Shown here: in pieces, positions 30,800-44,292 of the stretch
How the letters are laid out: every line of letters begins with the position of its first letter
Numbering within the stretch: position 1 is the stretch's first letter
NCBI GenBank assembly: GCA_913030945.1
Contig: CAJWEP010000004.1
Coordinates: 1 to 44,292 of the forward strand
Direction: 5' to 3'
DNA: 44,292 bases
Source: an uncultured Verrucomicrobiota bacterium
GTDB taxonomy: Bacteria > Verrucomicrobiota > Verrucomicrobiia > Limisphaerales > UBA1096
Notes under the pieces: generated by a model
What the model was told of the DNA's origin: nothing
The model's database searches: none
What the model saw: the letters and a program-made list of their open reading frames with translations, nothing else
Made by a program: the position numbers and the translations under genes

Positions 30800-32263
30800 T
30801 TACTTGGCAACAGTCTCGATCTTGGCGGCGGCATTGGCCCAGTTGATGGGCTTGTTGGGCAGGATGCCGAGGTAGAGGATTGCGGCGACGCAGAGGCCAA
30901 GCGCAACCCGCGTTGGCCAGGCGACTGCCACCGGCGAGTCGTCGGGCGTTTCTTTCGACCAGTAGATAGCGCGGATGATGCCGAAGTAATAATAGATCGA
31001 AACTACGACGCCGAACACCGCCACGGCCAGCAGCGCGAAGTAACCGGCATCACCGAACGCCTTGGCCGCCACAGATTTCACCAGCAGGAATTTGCCGAAA
31101 AAACCGGCCAGCGGCGGGATGCCAGCCAGCGACACGGCGCACAGCGTCAGCGCCAAGGCGAGGAACGGCGAGCGTTTGTTCAAGCCCGCGAGACAGGAAA
31201 TGTCCTCGCCCTCCCCCTCGCGAGTGACCAAGTTGATGATCATGAACGCCGCCACGAGCGTGAACAAATAACCGGCGAGGTAATACAAAATCGCCGCCGT
31301 GCCGTCGCCCGACTGGGCCACGATGCCCATCAGCAGATAACCGGCGTTGGCGATGCTGGAGTAGGCGAGCAGACGCTTGAGATTGCGCTGCGGCAGGGCG
31401 CAGAGGTTACCGTACAGAATCGTCAGCGCGGCGACAACCATCAGCATGCCGATCCATTGGGCGGTGAGTTCCGGGACAACGCTGCCAAACAGGCGAATCA
31501 ACAGCACGAAACCGGCCGCCTTCGAGCCGACCGCTAGGAAGGTCGTCGTGGGCGTCGGCGCCCCCTGATAAACATCCGGCGCCCAAACCTGAAACGGGAA
31601 CGCGGAAATCTTGAACGCCAACCCGGCAAACACAAACAGCATGCCAAACAAAAACACGTTACTCCCCAGCAACCCGGCGTGCGCGTCGCGGATCGCGTCG
31701 AACTTCAGGCTACCGGCCTCGCCGAACACGAGCGCGATGCCGTACACCAAAAACGCCGACGATACCGCGCCTAGGATCAGGTACTTCACGCCCGCCTCGA
31801 GCGAGTGCATCCGGTGTCGTTGGAAACTGACGAGGATGTAAAACGTCACGGTGATCAACTCGATCGAGACAAACAGCAGGCTGAAGTCGTTGGCCGACGC
31901 GGTAAACATCATCCCCGATAACGCAAACAGGATGAATGCTTGATACTCCGACACGCCGCTCCTCAACCGCGAGGCGAAGTCCACCGCAAACACCAGCACG
32001 AAGATTGCCGCCAACAGGAAGAATCGCTTGAAAAACAGCGCCAAGCCATCGAGCCGGTAAATCCCGCCGAACGCCTCGTCGCCGGCCAAGCCAGTGTAGC
32101 CACTGCGAAAGCTCAGCAGGAACACGAGGCCAAGCGCCCCGGCAGCAATCCAGCCAAGCGACGGGCGTGCCGACTCAGACAGGAACAGGTCGGCGAGCAG
32201 CACGAGCAGGCCCAGCGCGATCACCATCATCTCAAGTTGAACAAATTGCAGTTGACCGTCCAT
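30800..32263 (-). CDS. nuoN: NADH-quinone oxidoreductase subunit N
   Basis: Polytopic proton antiporter-like subunit: FILFALSGMMFTASANDFSLLFVSIELITVTFYILVSF...LLAYSSIANAGYLLMG; position in operon. Confidence 0.93.
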   Translation of the reverse strand: MDGQLQFVQLEMMVIALGLLVLLADLFLSESARPSLGWIAAGALGLVFLLSFRSGYTGLAGDEAFGGIYRLDGLALFFKRFFLLAAIFVLVFAVDFASRLRSGVSEYQAFILFALSGMMFTASANDFSLLFVSIELITVTFYILVSFQRHRMHSLEAGVKYLILGAVSSAFLVYGIALVFGEAGSLKFDAIRDAHAGLLGSNVFLFGMLFVFAGLAFKISAFPFQVWAPDVYQGAPTPTTTFLAVGSKAAGFVLLIRLFGSVVPELTAQWIGMLMVVAALTILYGNLCALPQRNLKRLLAYSSIANAGYLLMGIVAQSGDGTAAILYYLAGYLFTLVAAFMIINLVTREGEGEDISCLAGLNKRSPFLALALTLCAVSLAGIPPLAGFFGKFLLVKSVAAKAFGDAGYFALLAVAVFGVVVSIYYYFGIIRAIYWSKETPDDSPVAVAWPTRVALGLCVAAILYLGILPNKPINWANAAAKIETVAK

Positions 32264-32269
32264 GTCGAC

Positions 32270-33790
32270 TTATTTCCCGGCCGCCTCCGCGGTTTGTATC
32301 TGGCCTGCGATCGCAGACGGCTTGGCCAAGCTCACGATCTTCGTCACCTCGCCCTCAATGCGCTTGGTCAGCAGGCCCGGCGCAAAGCCGAACACCAGCA
32401 GCGCGGCCAGCAGCAAGCCAAGCGCCGCCGCGATCAGCGGACTGGCGTCGGCCGCCTTGGCCCAGTCACCGCCAATCGGCCCGTGCAGGATGTTGCGAAT
32501 GGCGCGCATCATGTACAGGCCGCCGATCACCAGCGCACTCCACGCGGCGATAACGGTGACCGTCTTGAGACCGGCCGACCATGCAGCAAAAAAGATCATC
32601 ACCTCCCCGGCGAAGTTGGCAAATCCCGGCAGGCCGCAGCCGGCCAACATCGCCATCAGCAACGCCGACCCAGCGAGCGGCATTTGGCGCAGCAGCCCAC
32701 CCATCCGGCTCATGTCCAGCGAGCCGGTCTGCCGGTACAGGTGCCCGCTCAAGCCAAAGGCCAGGGCGGCGAGCAGGCCGTGGGCGATCATCACCAGCAC
32801 CGCGCCGGTCAGGCCGATCACGTTCAGACTGGCGATGCCGAGGAAAATGAAACCCATGTGAGCCACGCTGGAGTTGCCGATGAGCAGATTGAGGTCTTTT
32901 TGGCGAACCGCCACTAAGCCGCAGTACAGCAGATTGGCCAAGGCCAGCCACGCCAGCACACCGAGCCAGCTTTGCGCGCCTGCCGGTGCCATCGGGATGG
33001 CCACGCGGATCAGACCGTACAGGCCGAACTTCTTCAGCACGCCGGCGTGCAGCATCGCGGTGGCGGTCGGCGCAGCACTGTAACCAAGCGGAGCCCACGT
33101 GTGGAATGGCCACAGCGAAACCAGGATGCCGAAGCCGAACATCAGCAGCGGGAAAATCCACCGCTGCGCCGACTCGGCAATCGGCGTCGCTTGCACCTTG
33201 GCGATCAAGTCCGGGATGCTGAACGACTCCGCACCGGTCTGCACGTACACGCCGATCAACCCGATCAGCGCCAACAACGCGCCTAGACTGAGGTAGAGCG
33301 TGATTTTGTAGGTTGCATAATTACGGTTCGCCCCCCTGCCCCACACGCCGATCATGATGAACGTCGGCACCAGCGCGAGCTCGTGGAAGAAGTAGAAGAA
33401 GAACAAATCCATCGAGGCGAACGCGCCAAGGATGCCGCCGATCATCAGGTTGAGCAGGATGTGAAACTCCTTCACCCTGTGCGTGATGTCGTCTGCGCAG
33501 CAGGCCGCCGCGAAGGCCACGATCGCGCCCATTAAAATAATGCCGATGTTGATGCCGTCGGCGGCCAGGTGAAAATTCAGCCTGAGGCTCTCGACCCACA
33601 CGACCTTGGTTTCGAACTGAATGCCGCCGCCTACCTTGAACGTGCAAAACGCAATCAGCGCGCATAGCAGCGTTAGCCCGGACGCCCCCAGCGTGATGCC
33701 GCGGATCACCCGCCGTTGCCTGCCGGGAACGAACCCAACGGCCGCGGCGGCGAGCAGTGGCAACAGAACAATGATCAACAACCAATCCAT
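32270..33790 (-). CDS. nuoM: NADH-quinone oxidoreductase subunit M
   Basis: FFYFFHELALVPTFIMIGVWG...LWPFHTWAPLGYSAAPTATAMLHAGVLKKFGLYGLIR...NSSVAHMGFIFLG. Confidence 0.94.
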   Translation of the reverse strand: MDWLLIIVLLPLLAAAAVGFVPGRQRRVIRGITLGASGLTLLCALIAFCTFKVGGGIQFETKVVWVESLRLNFHLAADGINIGIILMGAIVAFAAACCADDITHRVKEFHILLNLMIGGILGAFASMDLFFFYFFHELALVPTFIMIGVWGRGANRNYATYKITLYLSLGALLALIGLIGVYVQTGAESFSIPDLIAKVQATPIAESAQRWIFPLLMFGFGILVSLWPFHTWAPLGYSAAPTATAMLHAGVLKKFGLYGLIRVAIPMAPAGAQSWLGVLAWLALANLLYCGLVAVRQKDLNLLIGNSSVAHMGFIFLGIASLNVIGLTGAVLVMIAHGLLAALAFGLSGHLYRQTGSLDMSRMGGLLRQMPLAGSALLMAMLAGCGLPGFANFAGEVMIFFAAWSAGLKTVTVIAAWSALVIGGLYMMRAIRNILHGPIGGDWAKAADASPLIAAALGLLLAALLVFGFAPGLLTKRIEGEVTKIVSLAKPSAIAGQIQTAEAAGK

Positions 33791-33797
33791 TTCCCGA

Positions 33798-35564
33798 TCA
33801 AGTTAACGTGAAAATCAAAAGTGCAACCAAGCCGACTGCGAACCAAAAGGCGTACGTCTGCAGGTTGCCTGTCTGGGCCAGACGCAATACGCGTCCCGCC
33901 AACTCGGTCGTACCGTGTGTACCGCGCACCAGCAACCCGGCGATCACCCAGCGGTCGATCGTGTCTGCCAGCTTGGCCAGGTTCTCCTGCACATTGTCGA
34001 TGCACCATTGGTAAATTTCATCGAACCAAAACCGGTCGCGCAGCGCCTTGGCCAAGCGACCAAACCTGGCTGGAAGCGGGTCGGCCTCGGCACCGTTGTA
34101 CAGTGTATTGGCAACGAGCATGCTGAACACCAGCACGACCACCGAAGCGGCCAGCACCAGCGGATTCGGCGCGTGGGCGTTGAAGTAACCGGCGAGCACC
34201 GACGGTACCGCGAGCAAGAGCAGCGGCACAGTCATCACGGCGGAATTCTCTGCTGCATTCTTGGCGTGTGCCGATCGCGGTTCGCCCATGAACGCCACGA
34301 CGAAGAGCCTCGTCATGTAAAACGTTGTCAGCAAGGCGACGAACACGGCAACGAGGAACAGTAAAATGTTGTTCTCCAGCGCAACATCAAGGATGGCTTC
34401 CTTGCTGAAAAACCCGCTGAAGAGTGGCACGCCACAGAGCGCCATCGTACCGATCAAAAAAGTCCAGTACGTCCGGGGCATCCGCTCGCGCAGCCCGCCC
34501 ATTTTCCAGATGTCCTGCTCATGATGCAGCGCAACGATCACCGAACCGGCCCCTAGGAAGAGTAGCGCCTTGAAAGAGGCGTGCGTCGTCAGGTGAAACA
34601 TCGCCGCGTCGGGCGAACCCAATCCCACCGCCATCACCATGTAGCCCAGCTGTGAGAGTGTCGAGTAGGCCAGGATGCGCTTGATATCGTCCTGCTGCAC
34701 GGCCATCAGCGCAGCCATCAGTGAGGTCAGCCCGCCGATCCACGCGATCGCCTCCATCGCCCACGTGCCTTCGATCAGGAAAAACACACGGCATAGCATG
34801 TACACGCCGGCGGCCACCATCGTCGCGGCGTGGATGAGCGCGCTGACCGGCGTCGGTCCTTCCATTGCGTCCGGCAGCCATACGTGCAACGGCGTCTGGG
34901 CGGACTTGCCCATCGCCCCGCAGAAAATCAGGAACCCGGCTAGACCGGTGATCGCTGCCGTCTCGCCGGGGACCACCTTGGCCAAGTCGGCAAACCGAAC
35001 CGAGCCAAGCACGGCCCAGACCATTAAGATGCCGATCAGAAAACCAAAGTCGCCGACGCGGTTGGTGAGAAAGGCTTTTTTGGCGGCATCGGCCGCGCTG
35101 GGTTTCTCGAACCAAAAGCCGATCAACAAATAACTCGAGACACCGACCAGTTCCCAGAAGATGAACATCATCACGAAGTTGTCGGCCAACACAATGCCGA
35201 GCATCGAGAAAATGAAGAGGCTGAGAAAAGCGAAGTAGCGCTGGAAGTCGCGATCCTCCCTCATGTAGCCGAGTGAAAAAATGTGAATCAAACTACCCAC
35301 GCCGGTGACGACGCAGAGCATCAGTTTGCACAGCCCGTCAATCTGCAAACCGATGTCGATCTGTAGCCCCTCGATCTTGAGCCAAATAACGTTTGGGTGC
35401 AGTTCGCCGCCGGCAGCAATCAGCAGCAGCGTCAGCAAAAACGAACCGACGACGGCACCAACGGACATCGCTGCGCTGGCCTTGCGCGAGCGAAATGCGC
35501 CCAGGCCAATGGCCACCGCCGAAAACAGCGGGAGCAACAATATGAGCCATGCAGCGGTGTTCAT
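33798..35564 (-). CDS. nuoL: NADH-quinone oxidoreductase subunit L
   Basis: VGVSSYLLIGFWFEKPSAADAAKKAFLTNRVGDFGFLIG...TPLHVWLPDAMEGPTPVSALIHAATMVAAGVYMLCR...LAYSTLSQLGYMVMAVG. Confidence 0.96.
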   Translation of the reverse strand: MNTAAWLILLLPLFSAVAIGLGAFRSRKASAAMSVGAVVGSFLLTLLLIAAGGELHPNVIWLKIEGLQIDIGLQIDGLCKLMLCVVTGVGSLIHIFSLGYMREDRDFQRYFAFLSLFIFSMLGIVLADNFVMMFIFWELVGVSSYLLIGFWFEKPSAADAAKKAFLTNRVGDFGFLIGILMVWAVLGSVRFADLAKVVPGETAAITGLAGFLIFCGAMGKSAQTPLHVWLPDAMEGPTPVSALIHAATMVAAGVYMLCRVFFLIEGTWAMEAIAWIGGLTSLMAALMAVQQDDIKRILAYSTLSQLGYMVMAVGLGSPDAAMFHLTTHASFKALLFLGAGSVIVALHHEQDIWKMGGLRERMPRTYWTFLIGTMALCGVPLFSGFFSKEAILDVALENNILLFLVAVFVALLTTFYMTRLFVVAFMGEPRSAHAKNAAENSAVMTVPLLLLAVPSVLAGYFNAHAPNPLVLAASVVVLVFSMLVANTLYNGAEADPLPARFGRLAKALRDRFWFDEIYQWCIDNVQENLAKLADTIDRWVIAGLLVRGTHGTTELAGRVLRLAQTGNLQTYAFWFAVGLVALLIFTLT

Positions 35565-35567
35565 TGG

Positions 35568-35873
35568 TTACAGTTTCATCGTGGCCAAGTCCGCCACGTC
35601 GGTGGTTTGGCGTTTCCGATACAGGGCAACGATCAAAGCCAAGCCGACGGATACCTCCGCCGCCGCGACGGTGATGATGAAAAACACCATCACCTGGCCA
35701 TCGAGGTTGCCGTTGAATCGCGACATGGCCACGAGCGCCACGTTGGCCGCGTTGAGCATCAACTCGAGCGACATGTAGATGATCAGCAAATTGCGCCGCA
35801 CGATCACGCCCAGCAAGCCGATCGCAAACAGCGCGCCACTCACCAACAGATAATGGCTCAGGGTTGGTTCCAT
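35568..35873 (-). CDS. nuoK: NADH-quinone oxidoreductase subunit K
   Basis: HYLLVSGALFAIGLLGVIVRRNLLIIYMSLELMLNAANVALVA. Confidence 0.95.
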   Translation of the reverse strand: MEPTLSHYLLVSGALFAIGLLGVIVRRNLLIIYMSLELMLNAANVALVAMSRFNGNLDGQVMVFFIITVAAAEVSVGLALIVALYRKRQTTDVADLATMKL

Positions 35874-36421
35874 CAGCCTGGCTCCTTTCTGCTCAACAAA
35901 ATCACGCCAACCATCGCCACGAGAAGCAAGACGGAGACGATCTCGAACGGCAAAAGAAATCCTTTATCCTTGCTGAACAGCGCTTGGCCAAGCGCGCGTG
36001 TGCTACCGACCGCCTTGACCAGCTTGGCCTCCGTTTGATCCTCTTCTGCCACTTCGTGCTGCTGAGGGGCTTCGCCGTACGTCGATTCGAGCGAACTTTT
36101 GTAAACCAAAAACAGCGCGCCGACAGCCAAGATGCCCATGGCCAAGCTGACAAGATTCAGCTTGCGGCGAGCCGCCTCCCGGAGGTCGAGCAGCATGACC
36201 ACAAACAGGAACAACACCATTACCGCCCCGGCGTAAACGAGGATCTGCACCGCCGCGAGAAAGTACGCTCCGAGCAGCACGAACAGTCCCGAGATCGAGA
36301 TCATCGTTGTCACGAGAAACAACGCACTCGTCACCGGGTTGCGGCTCAGCGGATTCGCCACCACCAGCAGCGCGCTCAGCACTGCCAGCCCGGCGAAAAT
36401 ATTGAACAACGTTCCTTCCAT
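35873..36421 (-). CDS. nuoJ: NADH-quinone oxidoreductase subunit J
   Basis: RNPVTSALFLVTTMISISGLFVLLGAYFLAAVQILVYAGAVMVLFLFVVMLLDL. Confidence 0.95.
   Translation of the reverse strand: MEGTLFNIFAGLAVLSALLVVANPLSRNPVTSALFLVTTMISISGLFVLLGAYFLAAVQILVYAGAVMVLFLFVVMLLDLREAARRKLNLVSLAMGILAVGALFLVYKSSLESTYGEAPQQHEVAEEDQTEAKLVKAVGSTRALGQALFSKDKGFLLPFEIVSVLLLVAMVGVILLSRKEPG
35980..35995. repeat. Extended copy of iterated palindrome, GCGCTTGGCCAAGCGC (in nuoJ)
   Basis: Perfect 16-bp palindrome, same 16-mer as at 3382-3397. Confidence 0.9.
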
Positions 36422-36436
36422 ACCTCAGTCAAACCG

Positions 36437-37051
36437 TCAGTGAAACGCCGGTTGCTCGCCAGCCTCGCGAGTTTTCGTTTCCCATTTTTTGATGCCCTCG
36501 TCCACGTCGCACTGGACATGGTGATTGTAGGCCCGCTTGTCCGCTCCGCCCAGCGCGAGCAGTTTTCCCTTATTGTAGATCAACTCCTCGCGGGTCTCAC
36601 CGTTGATTGCATAGTCTTCCAGCAAAAAGATCGCCTCCTCTGGACAGACCTCCTGGCAAAAACCGCAGTAGATGCAGCGAAGCATGTTGATCTCGAACTC
36701 TTCCGGCATCTTCTCCGCACCCTCGCGATCGACCACACCACTGTCGCCAGGCGGCGTGATGCGGATGGCCTTCGGCGGACAGATAAACTCGCACAGCTGG
36801 CACGACACACACTTCGTCTTTTCGTCCACGTCCTTGACAAGATACGGCGCGCCACGGTAGCCGGTCGGAACATCCCACTTTTCCTCCGGATACTGCATCG
36901 TGGTCTTGGCGGTGAACTCCTTCTGTTTATCGCCATACACCTCTGAACGTTTCCACGAGAAAAAGTGACGCAGCGTAACCTTGAACCCGTTGATAAGCGT
37001 CGGCAAATACAACCGCTCCCACCAGGTCAGTTCTGTGCGTTTTACTTTCAT
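36437..37051 (-). CDS. nuoI: NADH-quinone oxidoreductase subunit I
   Basis: Two 4Fe-4S motifs: CVSCQLCEFICPPKAI and CIYCGFCQEVCPEEAI. Confidence 0.95.
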   Translation of the reverse strand: MKVKRTELTWWERLYLPTLINGFKVTLRHFFSWKRSEVYGDKQKEFTAKTTMQYPEEKWDVPTGYRGAPYLVKDVDEKTKCVSCQLCEFICPPKAIRITPPGDSGVVDREGAEKMPEEFEINMLRCIYCGFCQEVCPEEAIFLLEDYAINGETREELIYNKGKLLALGGADKRAYNHHVQCDVDEGIKKWETKTREAGEQPAFH

Positions 37052-37061
37052 CGTCCCGTCC

Positions 37062-38201
37062 TTAACTGTTCAGCACCCACAGCACAATTGCCGTGAGAAT
37101 GATGTTGGCCAAGCTCGCCGGCAGAAACCGCTTCCAGCCGATGTTCATCAATTGATCATAACGGAAACGCGGCAGCATCCAGCGTATCCAAATCATCAGG
37201 CCAAGGAACACCGTAATCTTCGCAATGAACACGCCGATGTGCACCAACCCTTTGCCAAGCGACTGGGCCGGTGTGTTGAAAAAGTCGCCGAGCGGCAGCG
37301 TCCAGCCGCCGCAAAACAGCACCACCATTAGCGCTGAGCCCGCAATCATCGCGGCGTATTCGCCCATGAAAAACAGCGCGAACCGCATCGAGCTGTACTC
37401 GGTGTTGTAACCTGCGACCAGCTCCGTTTCCGACTCCGGCAAGTCGAATGGTAGCCGGTTGGTTTCCGCAAAAATCGCGATCAGAAAAATTGCAAACGCA
37501 ATCGGCTGCTTAAACATCAGCCAATCTAAAATACTCTCGTGCTGATAGGCGACCACGCTGGAGAGGTTCAGTAACCCCGTGTCATTTAGGTAGTCCGACC
37601 ACGCCGTGGATTTATCAATCAGTTCAGCCTGCCAAGCAGGATCGGCCGCCAGCATGAACACCGGTACAACCGCCAAGCCCATCGCGATCTCGTAGGAAAT
37701 CATTTGCGCCGTCGAGCGGATGCCGCCGAGGAACGGATATTTCGAGTTCGAAGCATAGCCAGCTAGCACAACGCCGTACACTCCCAGCGACACGATGCCG
37801 AAGGTAAACAGGATGCCGACATCAAGATCAGCGATGACCATCTTCTGTGTCCCGAGCATCGAGCCAAACGGCAACACAGCAAGCACCACGAACGACGGCA
37901 CCATCGCCACCGCTGGGGCCATCCAATAAAATACTTTCCGCACATGAGCTGGCGTGAAGTCCTCTTTTACCAGCGCCTTCAGCCCATCGGCCAGCGGTTG
38001 GCCAAGACCAAGCAACTTGATGTTTGTGAACGGGATGCCAACGCGGTTTGGCCCAATACGATCCTGAATCCAAGCCGAGATGCGGCGCTCGGCAACGACC
38101 GAGTAGGCGACCATCGGCATCACGACGGCGAACACACACACCACCTTGAGCAGCGTCAGCACCCATGCTTGACCAAGCAGTTCTGTGATCGAGGCGAGCA
38201 T
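37062..38201 (-). CDS. nuoH: NADH-quinone oxidoreductase subunit H
   Basis: AWIQDRIGPNRVGIPFTNIKLLGLGQPLADGLKALVKEDFTP...ETNRLPFDLPESETELVAGYNTEYSSMRFALFFMGEYAAMI. Confidence 0.96.
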   Translation of the reverse strand: MLASITELLGQAWVLTLLKVVCVFAVVMPMVAYSVVAERRISAWIQDRIGPNRVGIPFTNIKLLGLGQPLADGLKALVKEDFTPAHVRKVFYWMAPAVAMVPSFVVLAVLPFGSMLGTQKMVIADLDVGILFTFGIVSLGVYGVVLAGYASNSKYPFLGGIRSTAQMISYEIAMGLAVVPVFMLAADPAWQAELIDKSTAWSDYLNDTGLLNLSSVVAYQHESILDWLMFKQPIAFAIFLIAIFAETNRLPFDLPESETELVAGYNTEYSSMRFALFFMGEYAAMIAGSALMVVLFCGGWTLPLGDFFNTPAQSLGKGLVHIGVFIAKITVFLGLMIWIRWMLPRFRYDQLMNIGWKRFLPASLANIILTAIVLWVLNS

Positions 38202-39901
38202 TACAATTTCACATCCGCACCGTTATCGCCCAAGCTGGCCCACGTCAACCCGGCGGCCTTGAACGCCTTCACCTCGTCGGCCATTTGGTTGAACAAACCC
38301 TCGATGCTGTTGAAGCCGTCGAGGCCGGTGACGTTGTGCACGAGCTCGTGCAGCACTTCCCACTCCGGCATCGCGTCGCCGGACGGCTCGAGGGCTTTTG
38401 TAAATTTCTGCACGCGCCCCTTCACGTTCGTGAACGTGCCGCGCTTCTCGGCGTGTGAGCAACCCGGCAGCAAATAGTCGGCCTTCCTCGTCGTGGCGTT
38501 GGGCAAAATGTCGCTGACGATGAGCATTTTCAACTTGCCGAGCAGCTTGGCGTCGATGCCGTGCTGCGTGACGTCCTCGCCGTACACGATCAGCGTCATG
38601 ATTTTGCCGGACACGATGCCCTTGACGATGGCGGACAATTTCGAGCCAACGCGCTGGGTCGTGACACCGATCAACTGCGCGCCGGTGGTGTTCGGGTTGC
38701 GATCGCCGGCGACGAGCAGATGATCGGCCTCTCCATTGCGGGGTACGGAGTCGGTCAACGCCTTGTAGCGCTTGGCCAATTTATTCAGCAGAAAAAGCTC
38801 CTCGTTGGTTTGCCGCGCCGACGCGACGATCGCGACCGAGCCTTCGGCGGCCTTGGCTAAGTGCCCGGAAATCTCCCGCAACGCGCTTGGCCAAGTTGTG
38901 TTTCCCCGCGGCCCGTGCAGCTTGCCCAAGCGATCGTCGCGACCGATCCACTTGTAATCGAGCCGGCCCGCGTCGCACATCCAGCAACTGTTGACCGCGT
39001 CGTTTTGGCGCGGCTCGTAGCGGTACATCCTGTTTTCGCGCGAGCCGATGACCGTGTTGCAGCCGGTGCCACAGCCGGTGCAGAGGCTTTTGGTTTCCTT
39101 AAGGAACCAGACGCGCATCTGAAAGCGGAAGTCATCCGACGTCAAAGCACCGACCGGGCAGATGTCCACGGTGTTGAGCGTGTAGTTGTTGTCGAACGGC
39201 TGGCCGGGATAGCTTGAAATCGCGTTGTAGCTGCCGCGGTTCACGATGCCCAGGGCATCGTCGCCGACGACACTGGCGGTGAAACGGATGCAGCGGGTGC
39301 ACAACATGCAGCGCTCGGCGTCGAGTGTGATGCGCGGGCCAAGGTCCACCGCCTTTGGCTTGTGTACCTTCACCTCGGCGAATCGGCTCTCTGGCTGGCC
39401 ATGATCAACCGAGTATTCCTGCAGTTTGCACTCGCCGGCCTGGTCGCAGATTGGGCAGTCGAGCGGGTGGTTGATCAGCAGCGACTCGAGCACCGCCTTC
39501 CGCATCTCCTTCGTCTCAGGGCTGCTGGCGTAAATTTCCATCCCCGGCACGATGCCGGTCGCGCAACCGATGACTCCGCGCGGTGTCCCCGGTTCGTACG
39601 GAAGCTGCATCGGGAACACCTTGGGCGAACCATCCTCGTTGGTGGGCGCCTTGCCGTCCGGACCAGGGCGTCCCGGCATGGCGACGTGCACGAGGCACAT
39701 TCGGCAATTGCCTGCCACCGGCATTTTGGGGTGATAACAGTAGTGTGGAATCTCGATGCCGGCCTGCTTGCACGCCTGCAGCACGGTGGTCGGTTCCGGC
39801 TTGCCCTGCCAATTGGGCATGGTGCGCGGCACCTCCACGGCGCAGCCGTCCACTTTCACCGTGACGGTTTCGACTGCTGGTTCTGTCCGCTTGGCCGCCA
39901 T
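38201..39901 (-). CDS. nuoG: NADH-quinone oxidoreductase subunit G
   Basis: IPHYCYHPKMPVAGNCRMCLV...NHPLDCPICDQAGECKLQEYSV...RCMLCTRCIRFTASVVGDDALGIVNRG...VDICPVGALTSDDF. Start MAAKRT at 39901. Confidence 0.92.
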   Translation of the reverse strand: MAAKRTEPAVETVTVKVDGCAVEVPRTMPNWQGKPEPTTVLQACKQAGIEIPHYCYHPKMPVAGNCRMCLVHVAMPGRPGPDGKAPTNEDGSPKVFPMQLPYEPGTPRGVIGCATGIVPGMEIYASSPETKEMRKAVLESLLINHPLDCPICDQAGECKLQEYSVDHGQPESRFAEVKVHKPKAVDLGPRITLDAERCMLCTRCIRFTASVVGDDALGIVNRGSYNAISSYPGQPFDNNYTLNTVDICPVGALTSDDFRFQMRVWFLKETKSLCTGCGTGCNTVIGSRENRMYRYEPRQNDAVNSCWMCDAGRLDYKWIGRDDRLGKLHGPRGNTTWPSALREISGHLAKAAEGSVAIVASARQTNEELFLLNKLAKRYKALTDSVPRNGEADHLLVAGDRNPNTTGAQLIGVTTQRVGSKLSAIVKGIVSGKIMTLIVYGEDVTQHGIDAKLLGKLKMLIVSDILPNATTRKADYLLPGCSHAEKRGTFTNVKGRVQKFTKALEPSGDAMPEWEVLHELVHNVTGLDGFNSIEGLFNQMADEVKAFKAAGLTWASLGDNGADVKL

Positions 39902-39903
39902 CG

Positions 39904-41307
39904 CTATCTCGTCGTGGCCTCCGCGCCGCGCTTGGCCAATCGGGTCTCGTCCTCCGCACCGCGTTGCTCGAAGTCGTCGCGGAACTTGTCCACGAAACTC
40001 AGCACCGGCCAAGAGCACGCCTCGCCGAAGGCGCAAACCGTGCGGCCCTGGATGTTGTGCGCAATGTGTCGTAAATACCCGGCATCGCCCTTCCGCGCTT
40101 GACCGCTGCGCATGCGCTTGAGCGCCTTGGCCATCCATAGCGAGCCTTCCCGGCACGGGGTGCATTGACCGCAACTCTCGTGCGCATAAAAATCAGAGAG
40201 ATTGCCAAGTACCTCGATGATGTCCACTGAATCGTCGAGCACGATGATGGCACTCGAGCCGGACATCGAACCGCACTTCATCAGCGTGTCGAAGTCGTAC
40301 GGGATGTCGAGCAGGTCGAGTTTTTGCTCGACGACCTCCCCCCGCTTGTCCTTGCTTTTGATGTCAAACTTCTCGCCGGCGCGGAACACTTTTGATGATG
40401 AACCGCCAGGAATGATGGCCTGCAGCTTGCGCCCGTCGTGCAGTCCATGACCGAAGTTCTTGTGAAAGATCAATTCGCCGAGGGTGGCCTTGCCAACCTC
40501 GATTTCGTAGTAACCGGGTCGCTTGACGTTGCCACTCAAGCTGACGATGCGAGTGCCGGTGTTGTTCGGCGTGCCCAGCGCAGCATAGGCATTGCCGCCC
40601 ATGGCCAGCACGTTGCGGACGTTGCAGAGGGTCTCGACATTGTTGACGATAGTCGGGCACATGTAGAGGCCAAGCGCGGCTGGAAAGTACGGCGGCTTGA
40701 TGCGCGGATACGGCCGTTTGCCCTCGAGCGACTCGATGAGTCCGGTTTCCTCGCCGCAAATGTACGCGCCCGCGCCTCGATGCACGTGAATCTCGAGATT
40801 GTATTTTGTGCCGCAAATACCCTTGCCAAGAAAGCCATTGGCCTTGGCCTCATTGATGGCATGGTTGAGGATTTTTGCGCCCTCCGGGAACTCACCGCGA
40901 ATGTAGATGTAGGCCAGCTTCACATCGTTGGCGTAGCACGACAGGATCATGCCCTCGATGAGTTGGTGCGGATCCTTGTAGATAATCTGCCGATCCTTGA
41001 ACGTTCCCGGCTCGGATTCGTCAGCATTGCAAATGAGATAGATCGGCTTGCCGGACTTACGATTGACGAAATTCCACTTCATGCCACAAGAGAAGCCCGC
41101 TCCGCCCCGGCCGCGCAGGCCGGACGCCAGCACCTCCCTGCGGATGGCCTCCTGCGGCGTCACCACGGCGCCCTTAACCTTCTTCGGCTTGAGCCGAAAT
41201 GCCTTTTTCAACGTCCGGTAGCCACCGTGTTTCAGGTAACACCCGATGTCATTCGTGTAACCCGCCTCGTCGGCGTGCTTCAAAACAAGTTTGGTTTCTT
41301 TCGGCAT
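39904..41307 (-). CDS. nuoF: NADH-quinone oxidoreductase subunit F
   Basis: GLRGRGGAGFSCGMKWNFV...YLICNADESEPGTFKDR...GAGAYICGEETGLIESLEGKRPYPRIKPPYFP...ESCGQCTPCREG. Confidence 0.96.
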   Translation of the reverse strand: MPKETKLVLKHADEAGYTNDIGCYLKHGGYRTLKKAFRLKPKKVKGAVVTPQEAIRREVLASGLRGRGGAGFSCGMKWNFVNRKSGKPIYLICNADESEPGTFKDRQIIYKDPHQLIEGMILSCYANDVKLAYIYIRGEFPEGAKILNHAINEAKANGFLGKGICGTKYNLEIHVHRGAGAYICGEETGLIESLEGKRPYPRIKPPYFPAALGLYMCPTIVNNVETLCNVRNVLAMGGNAYAALGTPNNTGTRIVSLSGNVKRPGYYEIEVGKATLGELIFHKNFGHGLHDGRKLQAIIPGGSSSKVFRAGEKFDIKSKDKRGEVVEQKLDLLDIPYDFDTLMKCGSMSGSSAIIVLDDSVDIIEVLGNLSDFYAHESCGQCTPCREGSLWMAKALKRMRSGQARKGDAGYLRHIAHNIQGRTVCAFGEACSWPVLSFVDKFRDDFEQRGAEDETRLAKRGAEATTR

Positions 41308-41322
41308 TCAGTGATTCGAGCC

Positions 41323-41349
41323 TTGACTCATCCAGCTCACTTTTAATAT
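41323..41349 (+). promoter_or_regulatory. Candidate promoter for tRNA-Gln
   Basis: TTGACT (41323-41328), 15-bp spacer, TAATAT (41344-41349), ending 17 bp before the tRNA 5' end. Confidence 0.4.
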
Positions 41350-41366
41350 CTATTCCCGCGCGGCGT

Positions 41367-41440
41367 TGCCGAATAGTGTAACGGTAGCACGAGTGACTCT
41401 GACTCACTTTGTCTAGGTTCGAATCCTAGTTCGGCAACCA
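41367..41440 (+). tRNA. tRNA-Gln (anticodon CTG), CCA encoded
   Basis: Acceptor TGCCGAA/TTCGGCA + ACCA; anticodon arm AGTGA-CTCTGAC-TCACT; T arm CTAGG-TTCGAAT-CCTAG; D arm GTG...CAC. Confidence 0.93.
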
Positions 41441-41443
41441 TCT

Positions 41444-41932
41444 TCATTCGTCGTATTTCTTCAGGATTTCATCCGCCCCGTCGTTCGAGACGTTCTCGTA
41501 AAAATCATCGTTGCACATCATCACCGGACCGGTGCCGCAACTGGCCAGGCACTCGGCGTACTCGACACCGTATTTGCCGTCCTTCGTCCGCTGCAACCCA
41601 GGCGCATCCGCGTCCAGACCAAGTCGCTTGCAAATGTGCCCGTGCAGCTTGGCGCTCCCGGCCAACGCACAACTCAACGTGCGACAGACCCGCACCACCG
41701 TCCTGCCCGGATCTTGCTGGCGCAGCATCGGATAAAATGTCACCAACTCGTGGATGTTGATCGATTTCAACTCCAGCCTGGCCGCAGCCCATTCCTCGGC
41801 CTCGGTGGAGATGTACCCGAACTCCTCCTGCAACGCATGCAGCACCATCAACGAGGCACTGCGCTTCTCCGGGTAGTTTTTCACAAGCCGGTTGATTTCG
41901 CGCTCCAGTTTTTTGGGAACTTCTAAACTCAT
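41444..41932 (-). CDS. nuoE: NADH-quinone oxidoreductase subunit E
   Basis: 2Fe-2S thioredoxin-like: VRVCRTLSCALAGSAKLHGHI...YAECLASCGTGPVMMCNDDFYENV. Confidence 0.94.
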   Translation of the reverse strand: MSLEVPKKLEREINRLVKNYPEKRSASLMVLHALQEEFGYISTEAEEWAAARLELKSINIHELVTFYPMLRQQDPGRTVVRVCRTLSCALAGSAKLHGHICKRLGLDADAPGLQRTKDGKYGVEYAECLASCGTGPVMMCNDDFYENVSNDGADEILKKYDE

Positions 41933-43185
41933 CGGTCGCATTCCCCCATCACGAAATCGAGCGATCCCAAAATCGCCACCACGTCGCTGATCATGTATCC
42001 CGGCAGCGTATGCGACAGGATGCTCAGGTTGGCGAACGACGGTGCGCGAATCTTCAGCCGGTACGGCACGCCACCGCCCTTGCTCATGATGTAAAAGCCA
42101 AGTTCGCCCTTCGGATTCTCGGCACCAAAATAAACTTCACCGGCAGGCGCGTCCTGCCCATGCGTGACGAGCATGAACTGATGGATCAACTCCTCCATGC
42201 TGGAGAGCACCTTCTGTTTGTCCGGCAAAACAACCTTGCCATCGTCCACGCTGACCGGGCCGCCGGGCAGCTTGGCCAGGCACTGGTCGAGCAGGCGCAC
42301 GCTCTGTCGCATCTCCTCCATCCGCACGAGGTAGCGGTCATAACAGTCTCCCACCTCGCCGTACGGCACATCAAAGTCGAGTTGATCATAAACGAGGTAC
42401 GGATGCGCCTTGCGCAGGTCGTACTCGACGTTGCTGCCGCGCAGGTTCGGGCCTGTCAGGCCAAAATCTATCGCTTCCTCCCGACTGATCACGCCGACGT
42501 CCTTCGTTCTATCAACAAAAATCTTGTTGCGCGTCAGCAACTTGTCCGTCTCGCCAATGGCCGCGCTGACTTCCTTGGTAAACTTGGCCAATTCGTCCGT
42601 CCAACCCTCCGGCAAATCACGCGACAACCCGCCAATGCGCGTGTATGTCGTCGTGAACCGTGCCCCGGTCAGAGCCTCGATCAGGTTGTATATTTTTTCG
42701 CGTTCGGTGAACGTGTGCAGGAACACCGTCAGCGCTCCAACGTCCATCGCAAACGCCCCAAGTCCAAGCAGATGCGCCGAGATGCGTGCCAGCTCACAGC
42801 AAATCACCCGGATGTATTGGCAGCGTTCCGGCAGCTTGTCGTGAATGCCAAGCAGCTTCTCCACCGCCAGCGAGTAGGCAACGTTGTTGGCCAACGGCGC
42901 AAGGTAATCCAGCCGATCAGTGTACGGAGTGAACTGGTTATACGTCATGTTCTCGGCGATCTTCTCGTCGCCGCGATGCAGGTAGCCGATTTCTGGGTCG
43001 GCCTTCGTGATAATCTCGCCATCGAGCTCGAGCACCAGCCGCAACACGCCGTGCGTTGCCGGGTGCGACGGCCCCATATTCAGGATCATCTTCTCGCCCT
43101 GCACATCCCGCAACTCCTCCATCGCCTGCGCCGAGCGCGCCGCGGAATCCTTCACCTCGAGTTGCCGTGTTGCCTCCATCGTCAC
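41929..43185 (-). CDS. nuoD: NADH-quinone oxidoreductase subunit D
   Basis: MILNMGPSHPATHGVLRLVLELDGEIITKADPEIGYLHRGDEKIAE...GAFAMDVGALTVFLHTFTERE...ILGSLDFVMGECDR. Confidence 0.96.
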   Translation of the reverse strand: MTMEATRQLEVKDSAARSAQAMEELRDVQGEKMILNMGPSHPATHGVLRLVLELDGEIITKADPEIGYLHRGDEKIAENMTYNQFTPYTDRLDYLAPLANNVAYSLAVEKLLGIHDKLPERCQYIRVICCELARISAHLLGLGAFAMDVGALTVFLHTFTEREKIYNLIEALTGARFTTTYTRIGGLSRDLPEGWTDELAKFTKEVSAAIGETDKLLTRNKIFVDRTKDVGVISREEAIDFGLTGPNLRGSNVEYDLRKAHPYLVYDQLDFDVPYGEVGDCYDRYLVRMEEMRQSVRLLDQCLAKLPGGPVSVDDGKVVLPDKQKVLSSMEELIHQFMLVTHGQDAPAGEVYFGAENPKGELGFYIMSKGGGVPYRLKIRAPSFANLSILSHTLPGYMISDVVAILGSLDFVMGECDR

Positions 43186-43760
43186 TCTTCGGGATTGCGC
43201 GCCCGCGGCTCGCGCGCGGTCGGGTCGTCGCCACCTGCCACGGTGACAAATGGCCCGCCCTCAAGCGGTGCCGCGTCGGTGAACGCCACGTCCGGCATCT
43301 CGCTTGGCTTGCCGGCCAACGGAAAATCTTTTCGTAACGGAAAAAACGGGTAGCCCTCCCACATCAGGATTCGCCGTAGATCGGGATGCCCGGCAAACCG
43401 GATGCCCATCATGTCGTACGCTTCGCGCTCGTGCCAGTTGGCCGTACGCCAAACCGCCGATACCGTGGGAAACTCCGACGCCTCTTCACCCACGCTGGTC
43501 TTCAGGCGCAAGTGGCAACCGTGTCCGTAACCGTAAAGGTGATAAACCGCCGTCCAGCGCGGTGTTTCCTCGTGGTTGTCGATGGTGGTAAGGTCGACCA
43601 GGAAATCGAAGCCCAGTGACTCCCTGGCAAACAGGCAGACCTCGGTGATTTGCGAGGCCTCCGACACCTCAAGCGTCAACTCGCCGCGAAACTCCACCGG
43701 CGCAGAGACAATCTCCTTGAATTGTTGCTCGAGCTTTTTGGCCAGTTGCTTCGCGCTCAT
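43182..43760 (-). CDS. nuoC: NADH-quinone oxidoreductase subunit C
   Basis: FDFLVDLTTIDN...VYHLYGYGHGCHLRLKTSV...TANWHEREAYDMMGIRFAGHPDLRRILMWEGYPFFPLRKDFPL. Start MSAKQ at 43760 preferred. Confidence 0.93.
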   Translation of the reverse strand: MSAKQLAKKLEQQFKEIVSAPVEFRGELTLEVSEASQITEVCLFARESLGFDFLVDLTTIDNHEETPRWTAVYHLYGYGHGCHLRLKTSVGEEASEFPTVSAVWRTANWHEREAYDMMGIRFAGHPDLRRILMWEGYPFFPLRKDFPLAGKPSEMPDVAFTDAAPLEGGPFVTVAGGDDPTAREPRARNPEE

Positions 43761-43767
43761 CCGGATC

Positions 43768-44292
43768 TCAGGCGACTGCCGCCTCCCTGGCGCGGGCTGG
43801 CTTGGCATCCTTGACGTGAGGCTCGTTTGAAATCTTGTTTTGCAGACGCATCAACCCCTCGAGCAACGCCTCCGGGCGCGGCGGGCATCCGCTAATGTAA
43901 ACATCCACCGGCAGCATCCGGTCCACCCCCTGCAACACGGCATAGCTGCGGTACATGCCGCCGGTCGAGGCGCACGCCCCCCCATCGCGATCACCCATTT
44001 CGGCTCCGGCATCTGCTCGTAAATCCGGCGCACCGCGAGCGCCATCTTGTAAGTGACCGTGCCCGCTACAATCATCAGGTCGGATTGGCGAGGCGAGAAC
44101 CGCATCACCTCCGCGCCAAACCGGGAGATATCGAACCGGCTCGCCCCCGCTGCCATCAATTCGATCGCGCAACAGGCCAGTCCCATCGGCATCGGCCAGA
44201 GCGAATGCTTGCGAAACCAGCTCACCGCCGCGTCCAATCTGGTGTGCACGACATCCCCTTCAACCTTGGAATTGTAGCCTATTTCAGTGCTG
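43768..44292 (-). pseudogene. nuoB: NADH-quinone oxidoreductase subunit B, frame interrupted at a C7/G7 run (possible assembly error); 5' end at or near window edge
   Basis: [75 protein letters not shown] in one frame; [45 protein letters not shown] in another; switch at 43977-43983. Confidence 0.85.

Follow-up and report, generated by a model that had tools for sequence, protein, structure and literature searches.

In S. aureus, the noncontiguous operon menE-menC-MW1733-ytkD-MW1731 has a gene of the opposite strand embedded within it, and the men operon is subject to reciprocal regulation through polymerase collision and RNase III (PMC7154746). A second related arrangement is the bidirectional promoter, which has a symmetric -10 element and a reciprocal start site 18 bp away (PMC10268837). 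A search of open-licence papers yielded nothing specific on the arrangement that we describe here, in which a tRNA-Gln(CTG) gene lies backwards between nuoE and nuoF.

The window, by which we mean the whole 44,292-nucleotide stretch of Limisphaerales DNA that was analyzed, shares with the S. aureus operon an opposite-strand gene lying between co-directional operon genes. The embedded gene also appears to have its own promoter, as judged from sequence conservation in relatives (-35 element in 81/81 loci and -10 element in 68/81), and operon transcripts reading through would be fully antisense to it, a geometry that an earlier, sequence-only reading of the window had described correctly. The two systems differ in that the embedded gene is here a tRNA rather than an mRNA, and in that this layout recurs through most of an order. 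Co-transcription of the flanking genes, reciprocal regulation and RNase III processing have been reported for S. aureus and would be putative at the present locus. The features of the window are collected in Table 1.

Table 1. Coordinates of the tRNA gene, its predicted promoter elements and the nuo genes in the window.
Feature	Position	Strand	Basis
nuo operon, nuoN to nuoB, running off the window edge	30800..44291	-	ORF list
nuoF, downstream flank of the junction	39904..41307	-	ORF; Pfam PF01512 and PF10589
-35 element TTGACT, predicted for the tRNA	41323..41328	+	TTGAC conserved in 81/81 loci
likely -10 element TAATAT, predicted for the tRNA	41344..41349	+	TANNNT conservation; 15-bp spacer
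tRNA-Gln (anticodon CTG), CCA encoded	41367..41440	+	ARAGORN; Rfam RF00005; cloverleaf conservation
nuoE, upstream flank of the junction on the nuo strand	41444..41941	-	ORF; Pfam PF01257

The nuoE-nuoF junction measures 136 bp and is the sole nuo junction longer than ∼15 bp, the others being overlaps or gaps of at most 15 bp (subunit letters besides E and F follow the order of the genes and features known for each family, without a separate search). It is composed of the tRNA and the promoter of the tRNA. On one side, the CCA end of the tRNA is 3 bp away from the nuoE stop; on the other, a gap of 59 bp lies between the 5′ end of the tRNA and the nuoF ATG, such that the nuoF leader (41308-41366) doubles as the tRNA promoter region. 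ORF and Pfam analyses thus agree with the sequence-only reading, which had placed the tRNA on the opposite strand between the two genes and 3 bp off the nuoE stop.

ARAGORN found a single tRNA in the window, the canonical tRNA-Gln(CTG) that had been recognized from the letters alone, and Rfam matched it to RF00005 on the + strand only, with 66.3 bits against a curated cut-off of 29. Across 39 distinct sequences, the 21 pairs of its cloverleaf show 99.5% standard pairing, and 10 of the 21 stem pairs have undergone compensatory change, through which the fold is kept. All 81 of 81 loci share the CCA end, the U1-A72 pair and the CTG anticodon. Judged from these compensatory changes and invariant positions, that is, from its evolution, the tRNA-Gln(CTG) is a functional gene under selection. 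In each of the three genomes with a tRNA listing, it occurs once. G041 and G039 both have a single TTG glutamine tRNA beside it, and in the window's own genome (G000), which is incomplete, the CTG gene is the only glutamine tRNA found. With its cloverleaf, encoded CCA, CUG anticodon and sigma-70-type promoter it resembles any ordinary bacterial tRNA-Gln(CUG) (RF00005), and its location alone is unusual.

To follow the arrangement through relatives and across the class, we searched for NuoE, scanned the resulting loci for tRNAs and counted by family label. We found nuoE, antisense tRNA-Gln(CTG) and nuoF in that order in 36 of the 40 Limisphaerales families with a NuoE match, including one family (f28) in which the contig ends at the tRNA. 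Conservation in relatives, which the sequence-only reading had proposed to check, is therefore extensive. Of 17 loci from the window's genus, 16 carry the arrangement and the 17th is cut by a contig end. In two of the remaining families (f11, genome G030; f35, G054), nuoF stands apart from nuoE with the backwards tRNA still upstream of nuoF. In the other two (f36, G055; f31, G050), nuoE and nuoF are adjacent without the tRNA; G055 keeps its tRNA-Gln(CTG) elsewhere in the genome, and none was found in G050 (78% complete). Outside the order, 39 nuoE-nuoF junctions showed both genes (34 from the class scan and 5 from named records), and this tRNA was in none of them. Most of the named records that carry the tRNA bear the label Limisphaerales, Verrucomicrobia subdivision 3 or simply Verrucomicrobia. 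The order forms one clade (99/97) in a tree of NuoF, and carriers of the tRNA occupy its deepest branches. The assembly of the window's genome is fragmented (345 contigs), which might raise the suspicion of an assembly chimera or a local accident; recurrence of the same arrangement in separately assembled genomes of dozens of families rules out a chimera and leaves such an explanation a negligible probability. In three loci, L039 and L076 among them, the nuoE frame extends ∼30 nt into the antisense tRNA, making an opposite-strand overlap.

One genome of the same class and a different order, G061, also has a backwards tRNA-Gln(CTG) upstream of nuoF. At this locus (L099), the tRNA (1501-1574) is 91% identical to that of the window and is followed by nuoF (1585-2991); an unrelated gene stands at the place of nuoE, with no nuoE nearby. 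The NuoF of G061 falls outside the Limisphaerales clade. The pairing of tRNA and nuoF in G061 is either older than the order and lost elsewhere, or arose twice, or was transferred.

We next consider the promoter, using 81 distinct loci of relatives that have the tRNA upstream of nuoF. All 81 have TTGAC at 39 to 45 nt 5′ of the tRNA, against ∼2 expected by chance. Following this -35 element, TANNNT was present in 68 of the 81 loci, with a spacer of 16 in 64 and of 15 in 4, the window included. Of the 13 loci without TANNNT, 12 belong to the window's own genus and have a weaker -10, which makes the exact -10 hexamer in the window less sure. A generic promoter scanner, which demands a spacer of 16 to 18 bp, missed the 15-bp pair of the window. 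In the promoter alignment, column information was highest at CTTGACTC and at the -10. A smaller, A-rich patch was also seen in the spacer just 5′ of the -10, at positions 14 to 16 counted from the first -35 base (A in 44, 45 and 53 of 64 loci). The distance from TTGAC to the tRNA has an SD of 1.6 nt, while that from TTGAC to nuoF has an SD of 81 nt and ranges from 3 to 367 nt. Because the distance is fixed to the tRNA and variable to nuoF, we assign the conserved -35/-10 pair as the putative promoter of the tRNA and not of nuoF. The sequence-only reading had taken the TTGACT and TAATAT boxes to be a promoter just upstream of nuoF; the boxes stand, on the + strand, and they point to the tRNA and away from nuoF. 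Among 41 loci without the tRNA at this place, the reverse complement GTCAA was found within 90 nt of nuoF in 4. The full promoter pair precedes other tRNAs of three genomes in 4/26, 6/43 and 5/45 cases, and by this comparison the predicted tRNA-Gln promoter is of the ordinary type for these bacteria, though unusually clean. Fifteen relatives have the start codon of nuoF only 3 to 7 nt from the -35 of the tRNA, so that start region and promoter element nearly or fully overlap.

Only a short stretch lies between the divergent tRNA and nuoF, a layout shared with genes served by bidirectional promoters (PMC10268837), and we considered whether a single such promoter could serve both. The -10 of the tRNA differs from those promoters in being asymmetric, with an A after the hexamer in only 15 of 64 loci, and the -18 position expected for a divergent start has A (53/64) rather than T. 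A bidirectional promoter is not supported.

Our promoter scans were confined to sigma-70-like pairs and our terminator scan to intrinsic terminators. Between the antisense tRNA and nuoF, the nuo strand showed no sigma-70-like pair at any of the 81 loci; the second promoter for nuoF that had been suggested from the window alone is not borne out, as the conserved pair there belongs to the tRNA. Across 51 short-gap and 28 longer-gap loci, neither strand had a conserved intrinsic terminator site in the junction. There was no convincing intrinsic terminator on the nuo strand, where three weak candidates came from the 28 longer-gap loci; the tRNA strand gave candidates in 2/51 short-gap and 4/28 longer-gap loci, the best of them in L032. 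Several loci (L025, L028, L032, L059, L062, L127, L129, L132, L137, L141 and L143) have inserts of ∼600 to 730 bp separating nuoE from the tRNA; over all lineages with long gaps here, the distance is 500 to 730 bp. The insert ORFs lie on the nuo strand and, judged by eye, belong to a nucleotidyltransferase-like family, often with a short second ORF; this family had no Pfam match. The inserts of L028 and L137 encode a PIN-type protein on the nuo strand, with a Pfam PIN match for L137. These inserted genes were judged from ORF layout, with the one Pfam match among those tested. As plausible genes co-directional with nuo, they indirectly favor read-through, as do the lack of a nuo-strand promoter pair and of a convincing nuo-strand terminator. 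Most likely, then, nuo transcription would pass through the tRNA junction. Transcriptional interference, which the sequence-only reading had raised, may occur.

Against read-through counts the separation of nuoF from nuoE in G030 and G054, where nuoF can be expressed independently. This would fit a split operon, in which nuoA-E and nuoF-N form separate units with the tRNA at their boundary and nuoF is driven by a promoter of an unscanned type or one inside the tRNA. G061, too, has nuoF downstream of the tRNA without nuoE, and in G054 the nearest ORFs of appreciable size on the upstream side face the other way, which implies that nuoF needs a promoter there. Room for one is sufficient in 22 of 79 loci, where the gap between tRNA and nuoF is at least 76 nt. 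However, the gap is 46 to 66 nt in the other 57 and the conserved positions are those of the tRNA promoter; together with the scan results above, this makes a split operon unlikely, although it is the strongest of the competing explanations. That the tRNA stayed with nuoF in G030 and G054 is itself expected, because its promoter lies on the nuoF side.

Mitochondrial transcripts provide a model of processing, tRNA punctuation, which could be invoked for an antisense tRNA-like signal: the nuo mRNA would contain the tRNA in antisense, and this copy would form a tRNA-like fold cut by RNase P or Z. The acceptor, T and anticodon arms of the antisense strand can indeed pair (-18.1 kcal/mol), but the fold is no better than that of shuffled sequences (z = -0.64), Rfam and ARAGORN do not recognize the strand, and some stem pairs are G-T and hence lost on the other strand. 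We therefore consider this signal very improbable, and the processing site that the sequence-only reading had imagined between nuoB-E and nuoF-N finds no direct support. A T-arm-like stretch beside the -35 in the antisense fold (41313-41322) occurs in part of the genus only, and we take it as chance.

How unusual is the placement? Using simple longest-ORF picks as gene calls, we found tRNAs lying antisense between two co-directional genes in 6/20 cases in G000, 9/44 in G041 and 13/46 in G039. This frequency (20 to 30%) is close to the expectation for random orientation, and antisense embedding of a tRNA is in itself ordinary here. Keeping both neighbors is rare. Between G041 and G039, 3 of 43 shared isoacceptors, from two loci, kept both, and tRNA-Gln(CTG) was the sole one of these with both flanks antisense; in the other, the tRNA Thr-Trp-Ser neighborhood (L208 in G041), both flanks are likewise kept, but the upstream neighbor that is conserved runs in the direction of the tRNAs. 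When G000 was compared with G041 or G039, tRNA-Gln(CTG) was the only 1 of 28 to keep both neighbors; the short contigs of G000 hide some neighbors of its other tRNAs, and this comparison calls for caution.

This exceptional conservation of position relative to other tRNAs, the retention of the promoter in every carrier and the use of collision and RNase III by the noncontiguous men operon of S. aureus (PMC7154746) could all be read as signs of regulatory coupling, in which the NuoA-E to NuoF-N ratio is set, or complex I is tied to the demand for tRNA, by head-on transcription or by RNase III cutting of the tRNA precursor paired with nuo mRNA, and selection for this effect preserves the arrangement. 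Yet linkage is by itself enough to explain why the tRNA was retained, the gene has moved in G055 and is absent from the G050 junction while nuoE and nuoF remain adjacent, and the gaps on either side of the tRNA vary widely in length. We accordingly judge coupling of this kind improbable. Slightly more doubtful still is its fullest form, an order-wide noncontiguous operon in which the tRNA, via head-on transcription and cutting of double-stranded RNA, ties the production of glutamine tRNA to the balance of output between the complex I operon's two halves. The data do not call for any regulation of nuo by the tRNA.

Taken together, we favor an ancient backwards insertion of a tRNA-Gln(CUG) with its own promoter, read through by nuo transcription and held in position mainly by linkage, at a probability of about 0.6. 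The tRNA would have lodged in the nuoE-nuoF junction in the Limisphaerales ancestor, or earlier, and have been retained since. Transcription of nuo would most likely cross the junction antisense to the tRNA, with nuoA-E and nuoF-N remaining one operon of noncontiguous geometry. Linkage would be the main force holding the tRNA in place: given a single-copy tRNA, a conserved operon order and a promoter that overlaps the nuoF start region, few rearrangements would be harmless.

The Limisphaerales offer dozens of natural replicates, along with a few losses and splits, of a tRNA that stands with its promoter head-on to a core respiratory operon. With these replicates one can examine whether antisense genes embedded in bacterial operons are tolerated or put to use, and the placement of the tRNA is a candidate genomic marker for the order.
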